Shown here piece by piece: positions 3,076 to 18,645 of a stretch of 34,203 nt of DNA. The notes under the pieces are model-generated. The model was not told where the DNA came from and searched no databases. It saw nothing but the letters and a program-made list of their open reading frames with translations. Numbering within the stretch: the stretch's first letter is position 1; each line of letters begins with the position of its first letter. A program made the position numbers and the translations under genes. This DNA is from a virus: positions 1 through 34,203 of the IMG/VR virus record IMGVR_UViG_3300034062_002170; one strand, written 5' to 3'.

Positions 3076-4052
3076 TGGCTATTAATAGTAGCAAAATAAC
3101 TTCACTAGCAAATAATGGTTTGTTTAGTAAAAGTGAATTGGTTACTTTATTACCAGCAAACTCTAGCACTGGATTAATAAATTATATTCAAAATGCTATT
3201 AGTCAAAATTTAACAAAATCTCAAATATTATCTTCTTCAAGATACTTAACATATATAGAAGGGCTGGGATTTGCAACAGAAAGTTTTAATGGTCAAACCT
3301 ATGCAAAAAAATCTTTTACAACAGTTGGAACTTCTAGTTGGATAATTCCAACACCCTTTATAAATCAACCAGCAATATTATTAGTTGTAGCAGGTGGTGG
3401 TTTTGGTGCAAACGGAGTAGCAAATGTTATGGGTGGAGGTGGTGCTGGTGGTTTAATATATAATGCTTCTTTTACTCCAACTGCAAATACAGTTACAGTA
3501 ACTGTTGGAAATGGTGGACAAACAACTGGAAGTAATGGCTCAAATTCTGTTTTTGATAATCAAACTGCTATTGGTGGTGGTTTCGGTGCAGCAGAAACAG
3601 GTGCTGGAAATGGTGGAGGTTCTGGAGGTGGTGGATCATACAGTAGTGGTCAAGGAGGCTCAGGAACTTCAAATCAAGGTAATCGGGGTGGAAATGGTGG
3701 TTCAACAGCAAGTCCATATAATGGTGGTGGTGGTGGAGGTGCTGGTGCTGTTGGAGAGGCTGGTCAAAATGGTAGTCGTGGTGGAAATGGTGGAATAGGT
3801 TTATCAATTTTTGGAACATATTATGCTGGTGGTGGTGGTGGATCTGCTTGGGCAAGTAGTGGATCTGGAGGAACTGGTGGACTTGGTGGTGGAGGAAATG
3901 GTGGAGCAAATCCAGCAAACTATGCTTCTGATGGAGTAGCAAATACTGGTGGAGGTGGAGGTGGAGGATACTCTGCTTGGAATGGTGGAAAAGGCGGAAG
4001 TGGAATAGTAATAGTTAGATATCCATTAACTATTCCATCATCATTTGCATGA
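3075..4052 (+). CDS. Glycine-rich tail adhesin
   Basis: The 325-residue product has an N-terminal region of about 90 residues rich in Ser, Asn and Leu, then a segment (KKSFTTVGTSSWIIPTPFIN) that leads into LLVVAGGG and a Gly-rich domain of roughly 200 residues. It closes with GGSGIVIVRYPLTIPSSFA. The layout matches the proteins at 919 and 5007, but the N-terminus (MAINSSKITSLANNGLFSKS) is of another type. That N-terminus begins with MAINS, as does the protein at 8133. The start codon overlaps the previous stop, and its own stop overlaps the ATG of a tiny downstream gene (ATGA). A receptor-binding role is inferred from the Gly-rich domain, as for phage adhesins in general. Confidence 0.85.
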   Translation: MAINSSKITSLANNGLFSKSELVTLLPANSSTGLINYIQNAISQNLTKSQILSSSRYLTYIEGLGFATESFNGQTYAKKSFTTVGTSSWIIPTPFINQPAILLVVAGGGFGANGVANVMGGGGAGGLIYNASFTPTANTVTVTVGNGGQTTGSNGSNSVFDNQTAIGGGFGAAETGAGNGGGSGGGGSYSSGQGGSGTSNQGNRGGNGGSTASPYNGGGGGGAGAVGEAGQNGSRGGNGGIGLSIFGTYYAGGGGGSAWASSGSGGTGGLGGGGNGGANPANYASDGVANTGGGGGGGYSAWNGGKGGSGIVIVRYPLTIPSSFA

Positions 4053-4159
4053 TTGAATTTATAAAATGTGGTACATGTCATCCAGAATTAAAATATAGAA
4101 ATATTCACGAGGTAGAAGAATGTGATATTTGCAAAAATAAGGAGTATATAAAAGAATAA
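4049..4159 (+). CDS. 36-residue zinc-knuckle-like microprotein
   Basis: This small frame starts with ATG at 4049, overlapping the previous stop (ATGA), and ends with TAA at 4157-4159, which overlaps the next ATG (TAATG). The 36-residue product begins MIEFIKCGTCHPELKYRN and holds two Cys pairs, CGTC at residues 7-10 and CDIC at 25-28, spaced as in a zinc ribbon or knuckle. Perfect overlap with both neighbours and the conserved-looking Cys pairs support a real gene despite its size. No function is known. It could bind nucleic acid, or be a small accessory factor for the fibre operon. No separate ribosome site is evident, so coupling would drive translation. Confidence 0.6.
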   Translation: MIEFIKCGTCHPELKYRNIHEVEECDICKNKEYIKE

Positions 4160-4227
4160 TGTCAAAAGCCAGAGATTTAGCCAATCAAGTATCTAATTTA
4201 ATAACTATAATAAAGGGAGGGGAATAA
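4159..4227 (+). pseudogene. Truncated fibre N-terminus or leader peptide, 22 aa
   Basis: A 22-codon frame begins MSKARDLANQVSNLI, which matches the N-terminal attachment motif of the fibre proteins at 919, 2032 and 4231 (basic residue, RD or RE, then Leu/Ile/Val-rich). It ends at the TAA at 4225-4227, only three bases before and in the same frame as the TTG start of the next fibre gene. It looks like the left-over start of a deleted fibre gene. Its 3' end supplies a TATAAT (4206-4211) and the GGAGGGG ribosome site for the gene at 4231, so it may now serve as a leader. Confidence 0.5.
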
Positions 4228-4230
4228 AAA

Positions 4231-5007
4231 TTGTCAAACTCAAGAGAACTATCAAAAATTTTTACAGCAGATACAACTGTAACAACTCATAGTGAACTAA
4301 TAACAGCAGTTAATGCTGCCTCTGTAAATATAATACAACAAGCAATACAATATACTGATAATGCTACCCCCGACTTAACTCCTGCCATTCAAGCAGCCTC
4401 TGCAGCAGCCGTAGCCTACACAGACCAAGAACTATCTAACATAGATTTAACAAGCACTATCATTACAGCAAGTGCAGCCGCTGCATCTTATACTGACAGT
4501 GAAATATCTGCCATTGATTATTCAACAATTATTCAAACAGCATCTGCAGGAGCAGTAACATTTTTAACAGACTCAGCACCTGGAACATTAGACACTCTTA
4601 ACGAATTGTCGGCGGCATTGAATGATGATCCTAATTTTTATTCAACTATTCAATCTGTATATTTAACACAATCAAATGCTAGTGCAACATATCTTACTCA
4701 ATCAAATGCTAGTTCAACTTATCTTACACAAGCAGCAGGATTAACAACAGCAACTGCATCTACAACTTATTTGACCCAATCAAGTGCTAGCACTACCTAC
4801 TTAACCCAATCAAGTGCTTCTACTCAATATGAAAAGTTAATACCTTATTCTACTTCTACCCCCGAAAGTCCAGTAACTGGTGATATGTGGCTCGATTCAA
4901 ATAGCACACCTCCTGCATTAAAGGTTTATGATGGAAGTAGTTGGGTTCAACTTGGTGCTGCTGTTGATGACAGTCAAGCAATAATTTCAGGTAGGATGTT
5001 CTCATAA
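4231..5007 (+). CDS. Tail fibre shaft protein, paralogue of the 2032 gene
   Basis: The 258-residue protein starts at TTG with MSNSRELSKIFTADTTV, a variant of the attachment motif. A GGAGGGG ribosome site lies about 8 bases upstream. It contains TASAAAASYTDSE repeats, DSAPGTLDTLNELSAALNDD, and a run of five or more YLTQSxAS repeats (roughly residues 149-205). It ends with a segment like ALKVYDGSSWVQLGAAVDD, shared with the product at 2032. These are typical of trimeric beta or coiled-coil shafts of phage fibres. The stop overlaps the ATG of the Gly-rich gene at 5007 (TAATG), so shaft and tip seem to be encoded as a coupled pair. Confidence 0.87.
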   Translation: MSNSRELSKIFTADTTVTTHSELITAVNAASVNIIQQAIQYTDNATPDLTPAIQAASAAAVAYTDQELSNIDLTSTIITASAAAASYTDSEISAIDYSTIIQTASAGAVTFLTDSAPGTLDTLNELSAALNDDPNFYSTIQSVYLTQSNASATYLTQSNASSTYLTQAAGLTTATASTTYLTQSSASTTYLTQSSASTQYEKLIPYSTSTPESPVTGDMWLDSNSTPPALKVYDGSSWVQLGAAVDDSQAIISGRMFS

Positions 5008-6366: not shown

Positions 6367-7770
6367 ATGACATTATCTACAAATAAAAGAAGACCAATAA
6401 TCATTGGTCCAGATACCCCTTTGGATCCAAAAGAAACAGACTTATGGGTTAATACTACAAATAATAAAATTTATCGATATGATGGTTCAACTTTTGCAGT
6501 TGTATCAGAAGCAATTACTCAAGCCTATGTTCAAAGTGCTTCAGCATATGCTTTATCCCAAGCAACATCACAAGTTAATGCTGTAATAGATGCAGCACCA
6601 GGTGCTTTAAACACCCTTAACGAATTGGCAGCAGCCCTCAATGACGATGCAAACTTTGCAACAACTATAGTTAATCAAATAAATAACGCAAGTGCTGCAA
6701 ATATATATTATACAGATTTTAGAGTTGATAGTGCCAGTGGAGCATTGACAGGGTATATAGATGCAGAATTAGGATATTTAGAAACAACAATAAATAATAA
6801 TATATCTTTATCAGAAGTAGAATTAGTTGGAATTATTAATACCGCTTCAGTTGCAAATACAAATTATACAGATTCAGAAATTATTGCTTTAAATTTAACA
6901 GCAGGACTAGTTAGTGCTTCTGCTGCCGCAGTATCATATGCAGATGCTTTAACTACAACAGATGTATCAGAAGGAACTAGTTTATATTTTACAAATCAAC
7001 GTGCTATTGACGCAGGGTCGGCAACATACTTAACACAATCAAATGCAGCAACAACTTATCTTCCACAAGTAGGTGGAGTAATTACTGGTAATTTAGAAAT
7101 AGATGGAACTTTAATAGTTTCTGGGTCAACAGCATATATTAACGTAACAGAATTTAAAGTAGATGACCCAATGATTTATCTTGCTGGCAACTCAAGTGCT
7201 AACTTAGTAGATATTGGATTAGTAGGAAATTATAATGACGGTTCTTACGCACACACAGGATTAGTAAAAGACGCAACAGATGGTAGATGGAAATTTTTCT
7301 CCAGTGTAGAAACAGAACCAACTGGAACTATTGCATTTAATGAAGCAGTTTTAGATGCAGTTGCTATGGGCTCAGCCAGCGTTATAGGAAACGTAAATGC
7401 GTCTGCATTTATTGGTGACGGATCTCAATTAACAGGAATTAATCTAGCAACAAAAGCAGATAAACTAAATACATTTGATAGCGAAACTTCAAACTATACA
7501 TTAATTTTGTCAAATGCAGATCAGATAGTTGAAATGAATGTTGGTTCAGCAAATACATTAACAGTACCTCCAAATTCTTCTGTAGCATTTCCAGTTGGAA
7601 CCGAGTTAACAGTATTGCAAACAAACACTGGACAAACAACCATAACACCAGGAGCAGGCGTAACAATTAACGGAACTCCTGGATTAAAACTTCGTGCACA
7701 ATGGGCGTCTGCTGTATTAATTAAAAGAGCAGAAAATACTTGGGTTGCCATAGGCGACTTGTCAGCATAG
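6367..7770 (+). CDS. Large tail fibre protein, 467 aa
   Basis: The 467-residue protein begins MTLSTNKRRPIIIGPDTPLD and GDTWxD-like spacing (DLWVNTTNNKIYRYDGS). It then has the shaft module DAAPGALNTLNELAAALNDD shared with 2032 and 4231, the SEGTSLYFTNQRAIDAGS module, YLTQSNAATTYL repeats, and a second half shared with the product at 8732. That half contains the GSTAYINVTEFKVDDPMIYL segment typical of long tail fibres. Its C-terminal domain runs from about residue 365 and includes TVPPNSSVAFPVGTELTVLQ and GLKLRAQWASAVLIKRAENT. I infer a trimeric fibre or collar spike; the C-terminal domain is widespread in phage structural proteins. The start is supported by a GAGG site and an extended -10 box. 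Confidence 0.88.
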   Translation: MTLSTNKRRPIIIGPDTPLDPKETDLWVNTTNNKIYRYDGSTFAVVSEAITQAYVQSASAYALSQATSQVNAVIDAAPGALNTLNELAAALNDDANFATTIVNQINNASAANIYYTDFRVDSASGALTGYIDAELGYLETTINNNISLSEVELVGIINTASVANTNYTDSEIIALNLTAGLVSASAAAVSYADALTTTDVSEGTSLYFTNQRAIDAGSATYLTQSNAATTYLPQVGGVITGNLEIDGTLIVSGSTAYINVTEFKVDDPMIYLAGNSSANLVDIGLVGNYNDGSYAHTGLVKDATDGRWKFFSSVETEPTGTIAFNEAVLDAVAMGSASVIGNVNASAFIGDGSQLTGINLATKADKLNTFDSETSNYTLILSNADQIVEMNVGSANTLTVPPNSSVAFPVGTELTVLQTNTGQTTITPGAGVTINGTPGLKLRAQWASAVLIKRAENTWVAIGDLSA

Positions 7771-7782
7771 TGAGGGGTATAT

Positions 7783-8133
7783 ATGGCATTTCCAGCAACA
7801 TACAACTTTAACTACTATCGTGGAGATAGTTTTGAATTTATTATTTATCCTAAAAATGCAAATGGAACAACTTTTAACTTAACAGAGTACGATTCAAATT
7901 TATTTACAATTGCTACCGCTAGAGGATCTTCTGGAGAAGAAATAGGATTTGGAACCGTAGTTTCTGGATCATCTAGTTTAACTTGTAAAATTACACCAGC
8001 AGTAGGAGATTTATTATCTGCTAACTCATATGTTTATGATGTTCAAATTAGTGATACTAGTGCTTCAACTAAATATACTTTATTGACTGGAACAATAACT
8101 GTAACTCAAGATGTTACCGATAGGGTTTCGTAA
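7783..8133 (+). CDS. Tail/baseplate-like small protein with YRGDSFEF motif
   Basis: The 116-residue protein opens MAFPATYNFNYYRGDSFEF. The YRGDxFxF pattern followed by an Ig-like strand order (IIYPKNANGTTFNLTEY ... ITPAVGDLLSANSYVYDVQI) is what I associate with small baseplate or upper-fibre proteins (BppU-like N-terminal folds) that carry fibres. It ends with a TAATG overlap with the next gene. A GAGGGG ribosome site lies 7-12 bases upstream. The role as an adaptor between tail tip and fibres is inferred from this resemblance and from its place between two large fibre genes. Confidence 0.7.
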   Translation: MAFPATYNFNYYRGDSFEFIIYPKNANGTTFNLTEYDSNLFTIATARGSSGEEIGFGTVVSGSSSLTCKITPAVGDLLSANSYVYDVQISDTSASTKYTLLTGTITVTQDVTDRVS

Positions 8134-8714
8134 TGGCTATTAATTCAGTAGTTTCAACAGAATCAATTACAGTATTTGGCCCACCCGAAGTTATAGAATT
8201 AGGATTAGATGTTGGTGCCCCTGGACAAAGAGGAAGTCTTATCTACACTGGATCAGGAGATCCAAATATTAATACTGGAGTATTTGTTAACGAGCCTGCA
8301 ATAGTAGGAGATTTATATTTAAGAACAGATTTTGGCTCAGATTACGGAGTTATATATTCATACAACGTTACCCCTAGTGGTAACGAGTGGAGTTCTGTAT
8401 TAAAATTTCAACCAGTTACATATAGTGTAATTGAGCCTTTAACATTTGTAAGTGGATCAGTAAGTGTGAGCATACCAGTAAATGACATATATAACGATGC
8501 TCCTGGAACTCTAACTTCAAGTAATTTTTCTATACAATTAACCCCAGAACATGATAAAGCAATTTCATTTGCTGTAGTAGATAAAGGTTTGGTAACTTCC
8601 TCAAGTAGGTCTTTAGTATTTGAGATTATTGCTACAGAACAAGATGAAAGTGGCGGGGTAGTAGATTTAGTAGGAATTGTTGATTTCAATATTACTATCA
8701 ACGTTCTGATATAA
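8133..8714 (+). CDS. Tail fibre-associated structural protein, 193 aa
   Basis: This 193-residue protein starts at an ATG overlapping the previous stop. The N-terminal part includes VFGPPEVIELGLDVGAPGQR, then GSLIYTGSGDPNINTG and a VGDLYLRTDFGSDYGVIYSY segment. Phage fibre proteins often have this GDxYxxT...YxY pattern. The C-terminal 90 residues are strand-rich with an FNITINVLI end. It lacks the Ala-rich shaft and Gly-rich tip modules. Translational coupling to the BppU-like protein at 7783 suggests that the two assemble together. The exact role is unknown. Confidence 0.75.
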   Translation: MAINSVVSTESITVFGPPEVIELGLDVGAPGQRGSLIYTGSGDPNINTGVFVNEPAIVGDLYLRTDFGSDYGVIYSYNVTPSGNEWSSVLKFQPVTYSVIEPLTFVSGSVSVSIPVNDIYNDAPGTLTSSNFSIQLTPEHDKAISFAVVDKGLVTSSSRSLVFEIIATEQDESGGVVDLVGIVDFNITINVLI

Positions 8715-9737: not shown

Positions 9738-10598
9738 ATGTCTAAAAAAATTAGAGGAAATGCTGGAAGATTACCAGGTGCTCCAACAATTGGGACAGCA
9801 ACTGCAGGAATTCAAAATGCTACAGTTTCTTTTACAGCCCCATCATATTTAGGAAAACCTTCAGGAACAAGTTATACAGTAACTTCAACCCCTGGATCAT
9901 TTACAGGAACAGGTTCATCATCTCCAATAACAGTAACTGGTTTAACTGGAGGAACCGCTTACACTTTTAAGGTTGCATTGTCTAATGGAATAGGTTTTGG
10001 TCCAGAATCTGCAGCAAGTAATTCAATAACAGCAATTGTTCCACCGTTCTTCCCACCGTTCTTCCCACCATTCTTCCCACCATTCTTCCCACCATTCTTC
10101 CCACCATTCTTCCCACCAAGATTTTATGTAAATAGTATTCACGTTGCAGGATGTATCTATGCAGAAACATTAGTTAAAACAGTAGGAGATAATGATTCTA
10201 TTAAACATGCAAGAGCAGAAGAATTAGAGGTAGGTCAAGATATTTGGGCTATGACTCATTCAAATATTGAAGATATGTCATTAGTAAAAACTAAAATTAA
10301 AAGTGTTTATCCAATTATTAAACAAACTTTAATATTTAATAATGATGAGTCTACAAGGGTATCCTTAGAGCAACCAGTACTAGTAGAAGACGGGGGTAAT
10401 TGGAAATTTATTACCTCAAATGAATTAACTATTGGTAATAAGATAATGTCTTATAGTGAAGAAGATAATAAATTTGTACCCCTTGAAATTACCGAAATAA
10501 CAAAAGATGAATCTCCAAAAGTAACATATGCTATATCTGTAGAAGATCATAGTGCATTTATTGCTGGAAATATAGTTTGTAGAAATAAGCAGGTATAA
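9738..10598 (+). CDS. FN3 - (PPFF)n - Hint (hedgehog/intein-like) tail protein
   Basis: The 286-residue protein has three parts. Residues about 13-100 form a fibronectin type III domain (PGAPTIGTATAGIQNATVSF ... YTFKVALSNGIGFGPESAAS). Residues 102-127 are six PPFF repeats plus PP. From C139 to N283 lies a Hint-type domain: block A as GCIYAETLVKT, AEELEVGQDIWAM, a block B-like SLEQPVLV, ELTIGNKIM, and a block F/G-like DHSAFIAGNIVCRN. Hint domains self-cleave peptide bonds using the first Cys and the final Asn. Here Cys139, H271 and Asn283 are present, but the usual block B His is Gln212 and the residue after Asn is Lys, so full protein splicing is unlikely. Limited autoproteolysis or a purely structural role is possible. 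It shares its FN3 and linker with the next gene. Confidence 0.82.
   Translation: MSKKIRGNAGRLPGAPTIGTATAGIQNATVSFTAPSYLGKPSGTSYTVTSTPGSFTGTGSSSPITVTGLTGGTAYTFKVALSNGIGFGPESAASNSITAIVPPFFPPFFPPFFPPFFPPFFPPFFPPRFYVNSIHVAGCIYAETLVKTVGDNDSIKHARAEELEVGQDIWAMTHSNIEDMSLVKTKIKSVYPIIKQTLIFNNDESTRVSLEQPVLVEDGGNWKFITSNELTIGNKIMSYSEEDNKFVPLEITEITKDESPKVTYAISVEDHSAFIAGNIVCRNKQV
10041..10118 (+). repeat. 12-base tandem repeat encoding PPFF units
   Basis: About six and a half copies of a 12-base unit (CCACCATTCTTC and CCACCGTTCTTC variants) encode (PPFF)6PP between the FN3 and Hint domains. The first copies carry CCG and the later ones CCA, suggesting local expansion by slippage or unequal exchange. Confidence 0.9.
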
Positions 10599-10599
10599 A

Positions 10600-11283
10600 A
10601 TGCCATTAATTATTGGATCAAATAGTGGTGGAAAACAACCAGGAACACCTATAATTGGTACTGCAACTGCAGGAATTATAAGTGCTACAGTTGGCTTTAC
10701 AGCCCCATCATATTTAGGAAAACCAACAGGAACAACTTATACAGCAACATCAAGTCCTGGAGGAATAACTGGAACTAGTTCAACTTCTCCAATTACTGTC
10801 AATGGATTAACAGCAGGTGTGTCTTATACATTTACTGTTACATTGTCTAACGGAATTGCAACTTCTACCGCTTCTGGAATAAGTAATTCTGTTACACCTT
10901 CACCAGTACCATTCTTCCCACCATTCTTTCCACCATTCTTTCCACCATTCTTCCCACCTAACTTTTATTCAGACGAAAGAGACAAGCAAGATATTAAATC
11001 ATTAGAATTGGGATTAGACTTTGTTAAAGATTTATTACCAGTATCTTATGTATGGAATATGAGAGATGGGTCAGTTGCTGGAGTAAATGATGCTGGTTTT
11101 ATTGCTCAAGACCTACAAAGAATTCAAGAAAAATACGGTGTAGAGTGGCTGGGTATGGTTGATGATTCTAATGAAAGTCAATTAAAGATAAACTATATTA
11201 AGATGATACCTATCCTTGTAAAATCAGTACAAGAACTAACTAAAGAAATAGAAGAATTAAAAAATAAACAGTGCTCTTGCTAA
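10600..11283 (+). CDS. FN3 - (PPFF)n - S74 intramolecular chaperone fibre protein
   Basis: The 227-residue protein has an FN3 domain (about residues 15-100) nearly the same as that of the preceding gene, including SATVGFTAPSYLGKPTGTTY. A shorter proline-rich linker follows (PFFPPFFPPFFPPFFPP, 104-120). From Ser124 there is a peptidase S74 / endosialidase-type chaperone domain: SDERDKQDIKSLELGLDFV, VSYVWNMRDG, AGFIAQDLQ, and a C-terminal coiled coil (about 205-223). S74 domains trimerise the fibre and then cut themselves off at the Ser of the SDxRxK motif, which is intact here (Ser124, Lys129). The short protein leaves a mature trimer of FN3 plus PPFF stalk. The ATG at 10600 follows the previous stop by one base. 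Confidence 0.88.
   Translation: MPLIIGSNSGGKQPGTPIIGTATAGIISATVGFTAPSYLGKPTGTTYTATSSPGGITGTSSTSPITVNGLTAGVSYTFTVTLSNGIATSTASGISNSVTPSPVPFFPPFFPPFFPPFFPPNFYSDERDKQDIKSLELGLDFVKDLLPVSYVWNMRDGSVAGVNDAGFIAQDLQRIQEKYGVEWLGMVDDSNESQLKINYIKMIPILVKSVQELTKEIEELKNKQCSC
10913..10960 (+). repeat. Second PPFF-coding tandem repeat
   Basis: About four copies of the CCATTCTTCCCA / CCATTCTTTCCA 12-base unit encode FFPPFFPPFFPPFFPP in the S74 protein. Unit sequence and reading frame match the repeat at 10041-10118, showing that the linker is a shared module that differs in copy number between the two genes. Confidence 0.88.
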
Positions 11284-11326: not shown

Positions 11327-12001
11327 ATGATGCAAAGAGAAGAAAATATAGTTCAATCATGGTCAGAAGTAGAAGACTTAGGTAATGGCATATATGTTTA
11401 TAGAGATGTATTACCAGAATCATTAGACTTAGTCAATAGATTAGAAAAAGTATTATCTAACCCAGAAAGTCAATATAACTGGATAGTTGCACAAGTAGGA
11501 TATGGTCAAGTTATGCCAGACTATCGTGACTGTGTTGATTTTAAATATAAAAAATCAGATTTGGTTGATGATGGATCAAAAGAATATAATGAATTAGCAA
11601 AAATATGGCAGCAATGTTACGATAGAAAGGCTGCAGCAGTAGATCACTATAGATCTAGATTTAATATTATGGACTTAAAATATTGGGAAGCATTTAACTT
11701 TATTAGATATGGTGAAGGTCAACATTTTATGGAACACCATGATCATGGATATTCATATAATTGTACAGTTTCGTTAGTTTGTTATTTAAATGATAATTAT
11801 GAAGGTGGAGAACTGTCATTTAGATTGCAGGGTTTAAAAATTAAACCAAAGGCTGGAGACATGTACGTATTTCCTTCTAATTTTATGTATCCACATGTTG
11901 CTGAAAAGGTAACGTCTGGTGTTAAATATTCTTTAGTAACTATGTTGGATTATAGTGCTAAGTATCATACACCAGAAATTTATAATAATACGGAAGACTA
12001 A
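11327..12001 (+). CDS. 2-oxoglutarate/Fe(II) oxygenase, prolyl-4-hydroxylase-like (1 of 6)
   Basis: The 224-residue product has the P4H-type double-stranded beta-helix. The iron triad reads H137-x-D139 (in MEHHDHGYS) and H190 (YPHVAEKV), and the 2OG-binding basic residue is Lys200 (SGVKYSLV). The spacer CYLNDNYEGGELSF is the hallmark LNDxYxGGEL of phage and bacterial P4H-like enzymes. These enzymes hydroxylate Pro, Lys, Asp or sugar/nucleotide substrates using O2 and 2OG. The substrate is unknown. Start is ATG at 11327 or the adjacent ATG at 11330. The stop overlaps the next ATG (TAATG). It is the first gene of an operon of six such enzymes. Confidence 0.9.
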   Translation: MMQREENIVQSWSEVEDLGNGIYVYRDVLPESLDLVNRLEKVLSNPESQYNWIVAQVGYGQVMPDYRDCVDFKYKKSDLVDDGSKEYNELAKIWQQCYDRKAAAVDHYRSRFNIMDLKYWEAFNFIRYGEGQHFMEHHDHGYSYNCTVSLVCYLNDNYEGGELSFRLQGLKIKPKAGDMYVFPSNFMYPHVAEKVTSGVKYSLVTMLDYSAKYHTPEIYNNTED

Positions 12002-13458: not shown

Positions 13459-14142
13459 ATGAATCCAAAAGAATTAGAAAAATTAATGGAAGAAACAGAT
13501 AAAAATAGGGTATCTATAACCCCGTCTGGATCTTTTGGATCATCTAAAGACAATATTGTAAGTTTAGAAGATTTTATGACTAAAGAAGATAAAGAGTTAT
13601 TGTATAACTTTGCAGTTAACTTAGAAAATTGGCACAAAGATGAAAGTGTTTATGATAAAGATGGTGTTATGATTTATGATGCTAGTTTTTGGGCTAACCG
13701 TGTAGCAAATCAAAAAGAAATTGCACAACAAGATTCAGCAAATATAGTTAGAGATAAAATTGTAGAACTACTAGCAAGATTTAAAGAAAAGGTAGATGCT
13801 CATTTAAACGTTAATGCCGTACCAACATTTCCTGCTTTTGTAAGATGGTTTCCAGGAAATTATCAACTACCACATGCAGATAAAGAATTGCATGAAGGAG
13901 AAAACTCAGGAAAACCAAATAATTTTCCATATTATGACATTGCTGGATTAATGTACCTTAATGATGATTATGAAGGTGGAGAACTATACTTTCCACAACA
14001 TGATATTGAGTTTAAACCTAAAGCAGGTGCAGCATATTTTTTTCCAGGAGATAAAAACTTTATACATGGGGTAAAAGAAGTTACTGCTGGTGTTAGATAC
14101 ACACTTCCATTTTTTTGGACTATAGTAGGGCACGGTAAATAA
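13459..14142 (+). CDS. 2-oxoglutarate/Fe(II) oxygenase, prolyl-4-hydroxylase-like (2 of 6)
   Basis: The 227-residue enzyme has the iron triad H139-x-D141 (LPHADKEL) and H203 (FIHGVKEV), with the 2OG-binding Arg213 (AGVRYTLPFFW). The GLMYLNDDYEGGELYFPQHD segment (163-182) is the usual P4H core strand pair. An N-terminal extension of about 60 residues (IVSLEDFMTKEDKELLYNF) carries the fold's helical support. Oxidation with O2, Fe(II) and 2OG is known for the family; the substrate is not. No ribosome site precedes the start, and a -10-like box lies just upstream. It abuts the next gene (TAA then ATG at 14143). Confidence 0.92.
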   Translation: MNPKELEKLMEETDKNRVSITPSGSFGSSKDNIVSLEDFMTKEDKELLYNFAVNLENWHKDESVYDKDGVMIYDASFWANRVANQKEIAQQDSANIVRDKIVELLARFKEKVDAHLNVNAVPTFPAFVRWFPGNYQLPHADKELHEGENSGKPNNFPYYDIAGLMYLNDDYEGGELYFPQHDIEFKPKAGAAYFFPGDKNFIHGVKEVTAGVRYTLPFFWTIVGHGK

Positions 14143-14919
14143 ATGGAATATATTAAACTATTTCCTAAGATACATGTATATAAAGGTTTATTAAATAACT
14201 GTGATGATCTAGTAGATATATTAAAAAAAGCAGAAGAAGATTCAGATACAACATATTTATTTAAAGACTGGAAACCGTGGAGTTTTTTTGGAACTTACGT
14301 TTATCAAATAGACAATAACGCCATACATTCTGGTATACAAAATGAAAAATTACAAAAAGAAATAAATTATCTTGAAATGGTTAAGAAAGCATTTTTTGAT
14401 AGCACTGATAACTTTTTAAAAGAATATAAATTAGACCTACCTGGAGATTGGCAAATGATGGGTCCTTCATTTTCCAAATATATACCAGACGAAGGCGAAG
14501 AGGGTAGAGTAGGAAAAGGAATGAGTATGTCTAGGCATACAGATTACGTACCATGGATGAAAGATGTTCCAGGATATAAATTTGCTTTAACTTGCACTAT
14601 GTATTTAAATGACGATTATGACGGTGGAGAAATATCATTTAAAGTTGGAGATCAGTATATAGATTATAAACCAGTTGCTGGAGATGTAATTGTATTTCCA
14701 TCTGGACACCCTGAATTTTTAGCAGACGAGCACCCTTATCTACATGGTGTTAAAAAGATATCTGGAAATCCAAGATATTTAATTAGATCTTTTTACCAGT
14801 TCTATCATACAGGCTCTGAAGAATGGCTTAAAAATCAAGAAAAGTATGGAAAAGAAATATGGTGTAAAATGGAAGAAGAAAGAATAGAAAAGGACATGAG
14901 GGTGTATGACTTTTACTAA
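14143..14919 (+). CDS. 2-oxoglutarate/Fe(II) oxygenase, prolyl-4-hydroxylase-like (3 of 6)
   Basis: At 258 residues this is the longest of the six. The triad is H132-x-D134 (SRHTDYVPW) and H201 (YLHGVKKI) with Arg211 (NPRYLIRSF) for 2OG. CTMYLNDDYDGGEISF (151-166) is the core motif. It has a longer insertion before the HxD (KYIPDEGEEGRVGKGMSM) and a charged C-terminal tail (EKYGKEIWCKMEEERIEKDM), both absent from its neighbours, which may define a different substrate. It starts immediately after the previous stop and overlaps the next gene by 14 bases. The substrate is unknown. Confidence 0.92.
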   Translation: MEYIKLFPKIHVYKGLLNNCDDLVDILKKAEEDSDTTYLFKDWKPWSFFGTYVYQIDNNAIHSGIQNEKLQKEINYLEMVKKAFFDSTDNFLKEYKLDLPGDWQMMGPSFSKYIPDEGEEGRVGKGMSMSRHTDYVPWMKDVPGYKFALTCTMYLNDDYDGGEISFKVGDQYIDYKPVAGDVIVFPSGHPEFLADEHPYLHGVKKISGNPRYLIRSFYQFYHTGSEEWLKNQEKYGKEIWCKMEEERIEKDMRVYDFY

Positions 14920-15586
14920 AGAAGATCTTAAATTCTATAAAAACGATATTGCAAGAATTGATAACTTTGTTACAGCAGATGAAGCAAAGGCAATGATTAA
15001 ATATTTTGAGTCTCAAGCACAAATTTGGGGAGATATTGCTTTTTATAATTCTCTTGGTATGGGCTTGGCACCACATGATCAAAGGCTTATTGAATTAGGT
15101 TTAGATCCTAAACATTTTGATAATTTAAGAGATAAGTTTAAACAATCATGTGAGATGTTTTTTGAAAGAGAATTAAGAGCAAACACATCTCATGCACAAA
15201 AATGGAAAGTTGGAGGATTTGCTGCACCACATTCAGACAACTCAGACCATGATGGAAATCCAAACGCCTTTCATATAAATAAATATGTTGGTATATTATA
15301 CTTAAACGATGATTACGAAGGTGGAGAACTATATTTCCCTGATCATAAGTTAGAGTTTAAACCTCCTGTGTATTCCTTCATTATGTTCCCAGGTGGTCAC
15401 GAAAATATTCATGGAGTAAAAGAAATAACAAAAGGAACAAGGTATACAATGGTTTCATTTTGGGATTATGCTGATGCAGTATATGATGAAGAAACTTTGG
15501 ATAAGTGGGAAAAGGAAATTGAAAAGGTTAGAGAAGAGCAAGCAGTTCAAAAAATAGAGTGGGACAAGGGAAATAAACTTGTATAA
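14906..15586 (+). CDS. 2-oxoglutarate/Fe(II) oxygenase, prolyl-4-hydroxylase-like (4 of 6)
   Basis: The 226-residue enzyme has H109-x-D111 (APHSDNSDHDG), H169 (NIHGVKEI) and Arg179 (GTRYTMVSFWD). VGILYLNDDYEGGELYFPDH (128-147) is very close to the corresponding stretch of the 13459 product, so these two are probably the closest pair. The C-terminus is a charged helix (about 197-220). A GAGGGTG ribosome site lies just before the ATG, inside the previous gene. The start overlaps the end of the previous gene by 14 bases and the stop overlaps the next start by 8. The family reaction is O2/2OG-dependent hydroxylation; the substrate is not known. Confidence 0.92.
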   Translation: MTFTKEDLKFYKNDIARIDNFVTADEAKAMIKYFESQAQIWGDIAFYNSLGMGLAPHDQRLIELGLDPKHFDNLRDKFKQSCEMFFERELRANTSHAQKWKVGGFAAPHSDNSDHDGNPNAFHINKYVGILYLNDDYEGGELYFPDHKLEFKPPVYSFIMFPGGHENIHGVKEITKGTRYTMVSFWDYADAVYDEETLDKWEKEIEKVREEQAVQKIEWDKGNKLV

Positions 15587-16127
15587 CCTATATATTAATG
15601 AAAAAATATATTATTATAAAGATGTAATAAAAAATTATCAAGATATTGTAGATAGGATAAATAATGAAAAAGATCCATGGGTTTTTTATCCAACAAAAGA
15701 AATTAATGGTATTAAAATACATGAACTAAACCCTTATGAGTTTACTGAATATAAAAAGGTTAAGATAACAGATATAGAAGATAAGTTAGAAAATTGTATT
15801 AGTGATTATGAAATAAAAAATAACATAAAAATAAAAAAATTTACAGATATGATTGTACATAAATCGTATCCAGGAAAACACTTAGGGCCTCATACAGATT
15901 CTAATGGAGAACATAACTCCCCATGTGTAACAGTTATTATTACCTTAAATGATAACTACTATGGAGGAGAAATGGTATTTGATAAACAAAATGTAACATT
16001 AAAACTTAGTGCTGGAAGTATTTTAATATACCCATCTGTTGAACCATATAGTCATATGCCTAGTCTAATTACCGCAGGAAGTAAGATATCAGCAATTATG
16101 TTTGGATTTAAAGATGAAGATAACTAA
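15579..16127 (+). CDS. 2-oxoglutarate/Fe(II) oxygenase, prolyl-4-hydroxylase-like (5 of 6)
   Basis: The 182-residue protein starts at TTG 15579, overlapping the previous stop, with an AAGGGA site upstream. The triad is H105-x-D107 (GPHTDSNGEH) and H159 (YSHMPSLI). The 2OG anchor is Lys169 rather than Arg (AGSKISAIMFGF). The core motif is ITLNDNYYGGEMVF. It is compact, lacking the N-terminal helices of numbers 2-4. The base composition is very AT-rich (many Lys, Ile, Asn codons). With the next gene it forms a compact pair with the Lys-type anchor. Substrate unknown. Confidence 0.88.
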   Translation: MYNLYINEKIYYYKDVIKNYQDIVDRINNEKDPWVFYPTKEINGIKIHELNPYEFTEYKKVKITDIEDKLENCISDYEIKNNIKIKKFTDMIVHKSYPGKHLGPHTDSNGEHNSPCVTVIITLNDNYYGGEMVFDKQNVTLKLSAGSILIYPSVEPYSHMPSLITAGSKISAIMFGFKDEDN

Positions 16128-16692
16128 GTTTGATAAGATACATTATTATGAGGATGTTATTGAAAATCCTTATGTTTTAATAAAAGATATTGAAGAAACA
16201 GATGAGTTATTAAATAATACTACATCTATAACAAGGTGGAAACAGTGGAAGGCAAGTGATGACTCATACGATTTCGGGTATCAAAAAATTATTAATCCTT
16301 CTATCATTGATGAAACTAATGAAAGACTTACATCGATAAATAAAAAAGTTCGTAATGCAATAGTTAACTCTTCTAAAGATTATGCAAATGAACATAATAT
16401 AGATTTAGGATATTTAACACCAATATCAATAGCCAAATATTCAACTGGAAAAGAAATGGGATCTCATATTGATTCATATGATGATGAAAGATCTCCTGTG
16501 CTATCTGTAGTCTTATATATTAATGATAATTATGATGGTGGAGAATTATATTTTAAAGAACAAGAAGTTTTAATTAAGCCTACCGCAGGAAGTTTAATAG
16601 CCTTTCCATCAGTAGATCCTTACTACCACCAGTCTATGGTTGTTACTAAGGGATTAAAGTATATGTCGCCAGGATTCTGGTACAAGGATTGA
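16114..16692 (+). CDS. 2-oxoglutarate/Fe(II) oxygenase, prolyl-4-hydroxylase-like (6 of 6)
   Basis: From the ATG at 16114 the product has 192 residues (a TTG at 16102 would add four). The triad is H118-x-D120 (GSHIDSYDDERS) and H172 (YYHQSMVV), with Lys182 (GLKYMSPGFW) as the 2OG anchor. VVLYINDNYDGGELYFKEQE is the core motif. Its opening (KITKFDKIHYYEDVIENPYV) resembles the start of the 15579 product, supporting a duplication between numbers 5 and 6. It overlaps the previous gene by 14 bases. Its stop codon overlaps the -35 box of the holin promoter. Substrate unknown. Confidence 0.9.
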   Translation: MKITKFDKIHYYEDVIENPYVLIKDIEETDELLNNTTSITRWKQWKASDDSYDFGYQKIINPSIIDETNERLTSINKKVRNAIVNSSKDYANEHNIDLGYLTPISIAKYSTGKEMGSHIDSYDDERSPVLSVVLYINDNYDGGELYFKEQEVLIKPTAGSLIAFPSVDPYYHQSMVVTKGLKYMSPGFWYKD

Positions 16693-17047: not shown

Positions 17048-18139
17048 ATGTCAAAACCTACAGTATGTTTCTTAACCTATGATTGGTCATGGGGAACTAA
17101 GCCTTTACAACCAAATGGATGTGCTTGGTATAGATGTTTTCTTCCAATGCAACAATTAAAAGAAAAAGATTGGGAAGTTGGAATGGGCTTTCCAGCATTT
17201 TCTCCAGAACATGGTTTTGGATTATTAATTCCAGATAAAAAAGCAATTCATGGTTGGGACATAGTTGTATTAAAACTTATGATGTTAGAAAATTTAGTTA
17301 ACAATATTCCTGAAGCACAAAGTCGTGGTCAAAAAATTGTAATAGATGTAGACGATCACCATGCTGGCTTGGAGCCAACAAATATGGCATACACTTCAAC
17401 TGATCCTAAAACTAATCCTAAAAATAATAGAGATCATTATTTTAGGGGTATGGAATTAGCAGATGCCTTAATTACCTCTACTCCCTTTCTAAGAGATTTT
17501 TATAAAAAACAATATCCAAATAAACCTATATACATGGTTAGAAATTCTTTAGATTTTAAAAACTTTCAAATGAGAAAAGATACTTCTGGTAATTGGCCAA
17601 CAGTTGGTTGGGTGGGAGCAACTCCTTGGCGTTCTGGAGATCTAGAAACTTTGAGTCCTTTTGTTGGAGAGTTTGTTGAAAAAAATGATTTACGTTTTCA
17701 TCACTCTGGTCATATTATTAATGCCCCAACGGTTCAAGAGCAAATGCAAATTCCTGCTAAAAGATTTTCTAGCGAAGGCATGAAGCCTATATTAACTTAT
17801 GGAGAAATGTTTAGAAAAATGGATATCGGATTAGTTCCATTGAGACATGTTGAGTTCAATCTTGCAAAATCATTTATAAAAGGTTTAGAGTATTCTGCTG
17901 CTGGTATTCCTTTTATTGCAGAAAATATAGAAGAGTATAAGTTTTTATATGAAGAGTATGGAATTGGCAGGGTTGCAAATACCAAAGATGAGTGGTTGGG
18001 TCATCTAGAAGAGTTAAAAAGTCAAAAGGTTAGAAATATTGAAAGACAGAATAACTATAAGTTAGCAAAAGAGTTTCATAGTATTGAAGCAAGAGGTCCT
18101 GAATGGGATAAGGTTTATAGAGAGATCAGAGAACTCTAG
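17048..18139 (+). CDS. GT-B glycosyltransferase (GT4-like)
   Basis: From the ATG at 17048 the protein has 363 residues; a GTG at 17003 would lie inside the hairpin and is less likely. The N-terminal half opens TVCFLTYDWSWGTKPLQPNG and has DVDDHH at 100-105. The C-terminal half has GWVGATPWRSGD and the donor-binding type helix FNLAKSFIKGLEYSAAGIPF (270-289), followed by an EY pair. This is the GT-B fold of GT1/GT4-type enzymes, which transfer a sugar from a nucleotide-sugar. No membrane segment is seen. Placed directly after the oxygenases and fibre genes, it may glycosylate virion proteins or a host-surface glycan. Its stop shares bases CTAG with the stop of the minus-strand lysozyme-like gene. 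Confidence 0.82.
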   Translation: MSKPTVCFLTYDWSWGTKPLQPNGCAWYRCFLPMQQLKEKDWEVGMGFPAFSPEHGFGLLIPDKKAIHGWDIVVLKLMMLENLVNNIPEAQSRGQKIVIDVDDHHAGLEPTNMAYTSTDPKTNPKNNRDHYFRGMELADALITSTPFLRDFYKKQYPNKPIYMVRNSLDFKNFQMRKDTSGNWPTVGWVGATPWRSGDLETLSPFVGEFVEKNDLRFHHSGHIINAPTVQEQMQIPAKRFSSEGMKPILTYGEMFRKMDIGLVPLRHVEFNLAKSFIKGLEYSAAGIPFIAENIEEYKFLYEEYGIGRVANTKDEWLGHLEELKSQKVRNIERQNNYKLAKEFHSIEARGPEWDKVYREIREL

Positions 18140-18645
18140 TACCAGCCTTTATATTTTTTAAAGTCCCAAGCCTTACATCCATCACCATAAATTAAATTAA
18201 CATATTTGATCATTGCATCAATTTGAGCGTATGGGTTTTCAGTTTTTTTACTATCAACTAGTCCCCAGGTGCTATTTAAAAATTGACCAATGCCAAATGC
18301 AGTTGATTTAGGGTTTTGTGCAAGAGGATTCCATTTTGATTCTTTGTCAATGATATTAAAATAACAGGATAGTTCTTTGTTGGGAACATTTTCTTTTACA
18401 TAGTGCTGATAGGCCAATATAGCCCTCTGAGACTTAGGATCAGTGAAGTTGGCCCTAGACCTAGCAGCAACGTCAGTATTGCTCTCACGAGCCTCTAGAA
18501 GCCCCTTTAAAGGGCTAAAGGTGGCTTGTCCTTGTTGGACAGCCACCAAAGGTTCGGCGGTATAAATTGGTCTATGTCTATCTACATAATTAGAATAAGT
18601 TCCTACAAAAATAAACGCTACTATCGATAATATTACACTCTTCAT
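18136..18645 (-). CDS. Exported SLT/lysozyme-like muralytic protein
   Basis: The 169-residue minus-strand product starts MKSVILSIVAFIFVGTYSNY, a hydrophobic N-terminal export signal or anchor. The C-terminal half is a lytic transglycosylase/lysozyme-like domain: FNIIDKESKWNPLAQNP with the likely catalytic Glu102, STAFGIGQFLNSTWG, and the closing GDGCKAWDFKKYKGWY, a tail I associate with actinobacterial Rpf/SLT proteins. It would cut peptidoglycan glycan strands, either for lysis or for local wall opening. A strong AGGAGGTAA site is 4 bases before the ATG. Residues 30-80 look like a disordered linker. No separate catalytic amidase is visible in the window. Confidence 0.8.
   Translation of the reverse strand: MKSVILSIVAFIFVGTYSNYVDRHRPIYTAEPLVAVQQGQATFSPLKGLLEARESNTDVAARSRANFTDPKSQRAILAYQHYVKENVPNKELSCYFNIIDKESKWNPLAQNPKSTAFGIGQFLNSTWGLVDSKKTENPYAQIDAMIKYVNLIYGDGCKAWDFKKYKGWY

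Follow-up and report, generated by a model that had tools for sequence, protein, structure and literature searches.

A 36-codon ORF with two cysteine pairs at a phage fibre-gene junction, possibly an accessory microgene of a single lineage

The fibre locus and its small open reading frame

The DNA analysed here, to which we refer as the window, is a virus record of 34,203 bases that contains portal, HK97-type capsid and B12-dependent ribonucleotide reductase-like genes and bears at its left end a series of glycine-rich and other fibre-type genes. For the capsid protein the closest relatives lie in Streptomyces phages, with an identity of about 39%. One of the glycine-rich genes (Table 1) encodes a protein that matches Pfam Gly_rich_2 (E 3.3e-23) and phrog_2295 (E 6.7e-47) and is 53% identical to a relative encoded at positions 7406-8386 of the related contig L003. 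At its end an ATGA (4049-4052) merges its stop codon with the start of an open reading frame (ORF) of 36 codons, hereafter the micro ORF, the product of which is MIEFIKCGTCHPELKYRNIHEVEECDICKNKEYIKE, with the cysteine pairs CGTC (residues 7-10) and CDIC (residues 25-28) set 14 residues apart. The bases before this start are ACTATTCCATCATCATTTGC, in which inspection found no Shine-Dalgarno sequence, and the micro ORF therefore combines a start that overlaps the preceding stop with the lack of a ribosome-binding site of its own, the two marks of stop-start coupling. At the other end its TAA runs into a TAATG that provides an ATG at 4159. In all these respects, namely the length, the CGTC-x14-CDIC spacing, the ATGA before and the TAATG after, the letters are exactly those described in the initial annotation.

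Table 1. Features around the junction between the glycine-rich gene and the next fibre-type gene
Feature	Position	Strand	Remarks
Upstream glycine-rich tail-fibre-like protein, 325 aa	3075..4052	+	C-terminus ...TIPSSFA; TGA (4050-4052) overlaps the ATG of the micro ORF
Micro ORF, 36 codons, two CxxC pairs	4049..4159	+	ATG 4049-4051, TAA 4157-4159
107 bases missing from the corresponding junction of L107	4050..4156	+	From comparison with L107, which has TTTGCA followed directly by TAATGTC
Truncated fibre-gene head, 22 codons	4159..4227	+	MSKARDLANQVSNLITIIKGGE, then stop; starts at TAATG; cut where a different leader joins
Actual downstream fibre-type gene, 258 aa	4231..5007	+	TTG start; PHROG tail-fibre matches; homologous start at L004:4323

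The micro ORF had also been described as coupled to both neighbours. This holds upstream, where the ATGA joins it to the glycine-rich gene, but not downstream, where its partner is the truncated 22-codon remnant and the fibre gene itself starts further on, at a TTG preceded at a distance of eight bases by a ribosome-binding site, AGGGAGGGG (4214-4222). The same head is found uncut in the related contig L002 (start at 4454; MSKARDLANQVSNLITISTGG..., 84 aa), and a sister head start, which extends for 388 residues, lies before the window in the same virus (L084:2274). In L004, on the other hand, the homologue of the gene that starts at 4231 has the leader TTATAATAAAGGGAGGGGAATAAAAATTG in front of it. 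Judged from these sequences, the 22-codon ORF is the start of an L002-type gene fused to a leader of the L004 type, which makes it a clean scar of recombination. A pattern scan for the start of this head matched only the four contigs of the same virus and the contig of L002. The window contains four short starts of the form M(G/S)xxR(D/E), and relatives contain more, which fits fibre modules being shuffled on a common head. The truncated head illustrates this shuffling, and the short ORF that results from it mimics a coupled gene.

Several other features of the window are recorded here. Four base differences fall within seven bases (1995-2001) at the end of the gene at 919-2013, in the three near-identical contigs that cover the site. 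The gene at 9738-10598 encodes a fibronectin III domain, the only one found by Pfam (fn3), together with a PPFFPPFFPP repeat and a C-terminal part, led by a cysteine, that by eye we take to resemble a Hint-type self-processing domain, while the product of 10600-11283 is similar to it in the N-terminal half and the PPFF repeat and ends in a chaperone-of-endosialidase domain (Peptidase_S74). Six 2OG-Fe(II) oxygenase genes (Pfam 2OG-FeII_Oxy_3; starts at 11327, 13459, 14143, 14906, 15579 and 16102) form one cluster at 11327-12001 and 13459-16692, in which a DUF6065 gene (12001) and an unassigned gene (12704) intervene. A transglycosylase SLT gene at 18136-18645 (-), on the strand opposite to its neighbours, lies beside the gap before 19010.

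The junction in related viruses

The glycine-rich gene of L107 also ends in TIPSSFA (DNA CATTTGCATAATGTCTAGAGC), and its stop TAA overlaps the ATG of a fibre head. At the same junction the window reads CATTTGCA, then 107 bases, and then TAATGTCAAAAGCC. By this comparison the micro ORF corresponds almost exactly to the DNA that is extra relative to L107, the borders of the insert being approximate because the glycine-rich protein of L107 is only 42% identical (query residues 2-86). An old leader may make up part of the insert, since the last codons of the micro ORF (4139..4158, + strand; AAGGAGTATATAAAAGAATA) resemble the leader AAAGGGGTATATAAAAATAA of the upstream fibre gene of the same virus (L084, gene start at 2274). 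In L002 a one-base overlap joins the glycine-rich gene directly to the next head, without insert, and in L003 a one-base gap separates the glycine-rich gene from the next; no small ORF like the micro ORF was found at the junctions of L002, L003, L004 and the part of L084 upstream of the window.

A count of junctions of this kind was carried out on a list of 92 sequences; beforehand, 16 loci had been set aside as duplicates, either of the virus in the window or of some other locus, and L084 had been trimmed to the sequence preceding the window, with 520 bases more. It rendered 34 glycine-rich gene ends, which are not fully independent, including as they do the similar contigs L062/L068, L011/L012 and L017/L034. 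At each of the 33 ends other than that of the window, the next ORF with a length of 48 codons or more starts from -23 to +52 bases relative to the stop, and none of the 33 bears an ATG ORF of 15-47 codons at the junction. At the window junction the small ORF is present and the next long ORF begins at +178. The insert is present in one lineage and absent from the same kind of junction in relatives, as expected of an accessory insert, and the existence of both empty and filled sites makes the insertion unusually readable.

The micro ORF was found to be identical in four near-identical contigs (L087-L090) and nowhere else in the searches made. Over the sequence compared, each of these contigs shows between 1 and 7 base differences from the window, none of them inside the ORF, and all four contigs belong to the same virus. 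A tblastn search of phages with the 36-residue protein gave E values of 2 or worse over about half of the query, and a plasmid search yielded no homologue. Scanning IMG/VR with the patterns CGTCHPELKY, CxxCxPE-x10-ECxxC, VEECxxCKN and CGxCHPELK recovered L087-L090; additional matches in L091 (CxxCxPE-x10-ECxxC) and L095-L099 (VEECxxCKN) were dismissed as chance, their in-frame reading being unlike the micro ORF. A GTDB pattern scan gave two matches, with open frames of 24 and 12 codons. Among eight related records the micro ORF is missing from six, and the two that carry it represent the same virus. Conservation of the frame in related genomes, which the initial annotation had proposed as a check on the gene, was thus not borne out, the frame being found in one virus population only and the same-kind junctions of relatives being without the insert. 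Among the papers listed by a literature search, none deals with the micro ORF or its locus.

Coding evidence and the predicted product

The exactness of the coupling had been considered improbable by chance, a view that simulation contradicts. In 200,000 Markov sequences of window composition with a forced ATGA start, an ORF of 25-60 codons arose in 30,386 cases, 3,697 of which end in TAATG or ATGA. Moreover, many of the 38 gene junctions listed in the window abut or overlap, so that coupling is the ordinary style of this genome. Double coupling is therefore weak evidence for a gene.

The cysteine pattern behaves differently. Two pairs in the arrangement CxxC-x6-22-CxxC were present in 6 of the 30,386 random ORFs, in 2 of 30,603 obtained under a local model and in 2 of 14,011 generated with the ORF's own composition, and the pattern exceeds what chance would produce, although the motif was chosen only once it had been seen. 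In the window and related loci (1,056,441 bases, near-duplicate loci counted) it was detected in 33 of 10,364 ORFs of 22-70 codons, 22 of the 33 running against the orientation of the locus. A different type of short phage ORF rich in cysteine, with 59 codons and the motifs CKKC...CKKCGC...CPIGKW, is located at L007:6680-6859 and L008:4060-4239, and a similar ORF of 68 codons is found in L070.

Synonymous codon choice in the micro ORF scored a log-likelihood ratio of 5.67 bits, against a gene median of 6.25, a value reached by 0.2% of 5,000 background resamplings. This score is independent of the amino acids; since one antisense frame of real genes also scores fairly high (median 3.74), the result is to be taken as support, not as proof. 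The full codon score, 1.5, is the highest among the six frames, and only 0.8% of this phage's gene windows are as low, a score in which the unusual amino-acid make-up is included. The main support for a gene is the cysteine pattern together with the gene-like synonymous codon choice.

No Pfam or NCBIfam family above cut-off and no PHROG match were found for the product, and a sequence search of the PDB gave a best E of 2.3, with no convincing match. An AlphaFold2 single-sequence model (pLDDT 55.5) is unreliable. Weak Pfam matches to zinc fingers include the second zinc finger of IFT121 (E 0.047; 13.8 bits versus a cut-off of 25) and ZZ (11.8 versus 21.4 bits), and a weak match to DUF1451 (E 0.074; 13.6 versus 26.1 bits) was also obtained. 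In size (<70 residues) and in its two CxxC pairs the product falls within the descriptive class of zinc-finger micro-proteins. It is probably a Cys4 zinc knuckle with one zinc ion, a putative assignment that takes the simplest role which two CxxC pairs could have in a protein of 4 kDa in the cytoplasm. An RNA element was rejected as an explanation of the stretch, with no Rfam match, no tRNA and a fold weaker than that of shuffled sequences (z +3.3).

Origin of the insert and comparison with known systems

The micro ORF is most likely a real small gene, in view of the Cys4 pattern, the synonymous codon choice and the best score of the six frames. More specifically, it may be an accessory microgene, specific to one lineage, that was inserted at the junction between fibre genes, which we hold with slightly better than even confidence. 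The insert would have entered as one stop-start unit between the last codon of the glycine-rich gene and the TAATG of the fibre head. A ribosome ending the glycine-rich gene would slip back at the ATGA and reinitiate, as the overlap and the absence of a Shine-Dalgarno sequence before 4049 suggest, and the microprotein would be made along with the fibres. Its four cysteines would hold one zinc ion, forming a small cytoplasmic knuckle, for which host interaction or fibre assembly are candidate roles. The TAATG would pass the ribosome to the next head, which recombination appears to have cut to 22 codons, and the present fibre gene would rely on its own ribosome-binding site.

The main rival is that the 107 bases are recombination debris, a leftover of fibre-locus shuffling that is open by chance and whose product is unselected. 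The neighbouring ORF of 22 codons is clearly a scar of that kind, coupling at both sides is cheap by chance, and none of the phage, plasmid, IMG/VR, GTDB and related-record searches found a homologue; the rarity of the Cys4 pattern among random ORFs, the gene-like synonymous codon choice and the exact coincidence of the insert ends with a stop and a start nevertheless speak against debris, which we regard as unlikely, albeit less so than the other alternatives. Zinc ribbons within larger proteins typically contain two CxxC pairs, and together with the weak matches to IFT121 and DUF1451 these pairs could point to a non-functional fragment of such a protein, for instance a mobile endonuclease, brought in by recombination. 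However, every match is under its curated cut-off, there is no endonuclease family among the Pfam matches, and the start and stop of the ORF, both its own, fall exactly on the stop and start of its neighbours, so that a fragment seems distinctly improbable.

It could also be the case that the peptide is irrelevant and that the ORF serves as a translational bridge or leader that hands ribosomes on from the glycine-rich gene to the following start, in keeping with the stop-start overlap at either end and with the presence in the last codons of AAGGAGTATATAAAA, similar to the fibre-gene leader of the same virus. Relatives join the same kinds of genes by one-base overlaps or short leaders, so that a bridge of 107 bases is unneeded; moreover, the start reached is that of a truncated ORF and the four cysteines are left unexplained, and we give this reading little credence. 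As for a haem-binding, c-type cytochrome-like peptide, with CGTCH as a CxxCH haem motif, the best Pfam matches are indeed to MtrC/MtrF domain II/IV (E 0.0075) and to cytochrome c7 (E 0.017), with an NCBIfam decahaem match at E 0.04. The Pfam scores are, however, far under cut-off (16.2 versus 30 and 15.4 versus 24.8 bits), and of the two pairs, each of which should be followed by His in a c-type cytochrome, CGTCH complies and CDICK does not. By inspection, no signal peptide is evident for export to the site of haem c attachment. Haem binding was rejected on these grounds as extremely improbable.

If the accessory microgene is real, it would be an example of a phage adding to a structural operon, without signals of its own, a gene too short for standard gene finders, and its product would be a cysteine-pair microprotein co-produced with tail fibres. 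With no homologue found, the wider importance is small. A bolder proposal, to which we attach only a slim chance, is that the 107 bases might be a transferable stop-start cassette, that is, a microgene without promoter, which begins on the preceding stop codon, finishes in TAATG and could fit any of the many one-base junctions of the fibre locus with the coupling kept, delivering a putative zinc microprotein with the fibres.

Phage accessory inserts known as morons, located between conserved genes, resemble the micro ORF in being an extra gene of one lineage that is absent from the same kind of junction in relatives. Morons typically have their own promoter and terminator, whereas no convincing promoter or terminator was found at the insert and the micro ORF uses the stop and start of its neighbours. 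The multihaem domains of MtrC/MtrF and c7 share with it a CxxCH followed by a second CxxC; it differs from them in its scores under cut-off, its single CxxCH and the lack of an evident export signal. HF1-group haloviruses encode numerous small proteins (<100 aa) with CxxC motifs, of unknown function and presumed to be zinc fingers (PMC7230728), and the micro ORF is likewise virus-encoded, of less than 100 residues and provided with CxxC motifs; those proteins, however, correspond to annotated genes of archaeal viruses, while the micro ORF belongs to a phage fragment, is placed inside its fibre locus and yielded no homologue in the searches. HVO_0758 of Haloferax volcanii, a two-pair micro-protein, has been shown to be a true zinc finger whose folding needs all four cysteines (PMC10716476). 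Micro-proteins of this type are cellular, with C(P)XCG motifs, whereas the micro ORF has CGTC and CDIC and its zinc is putative; they share with the micro ORF a length of less than 70 residues and two cysteine pairs.
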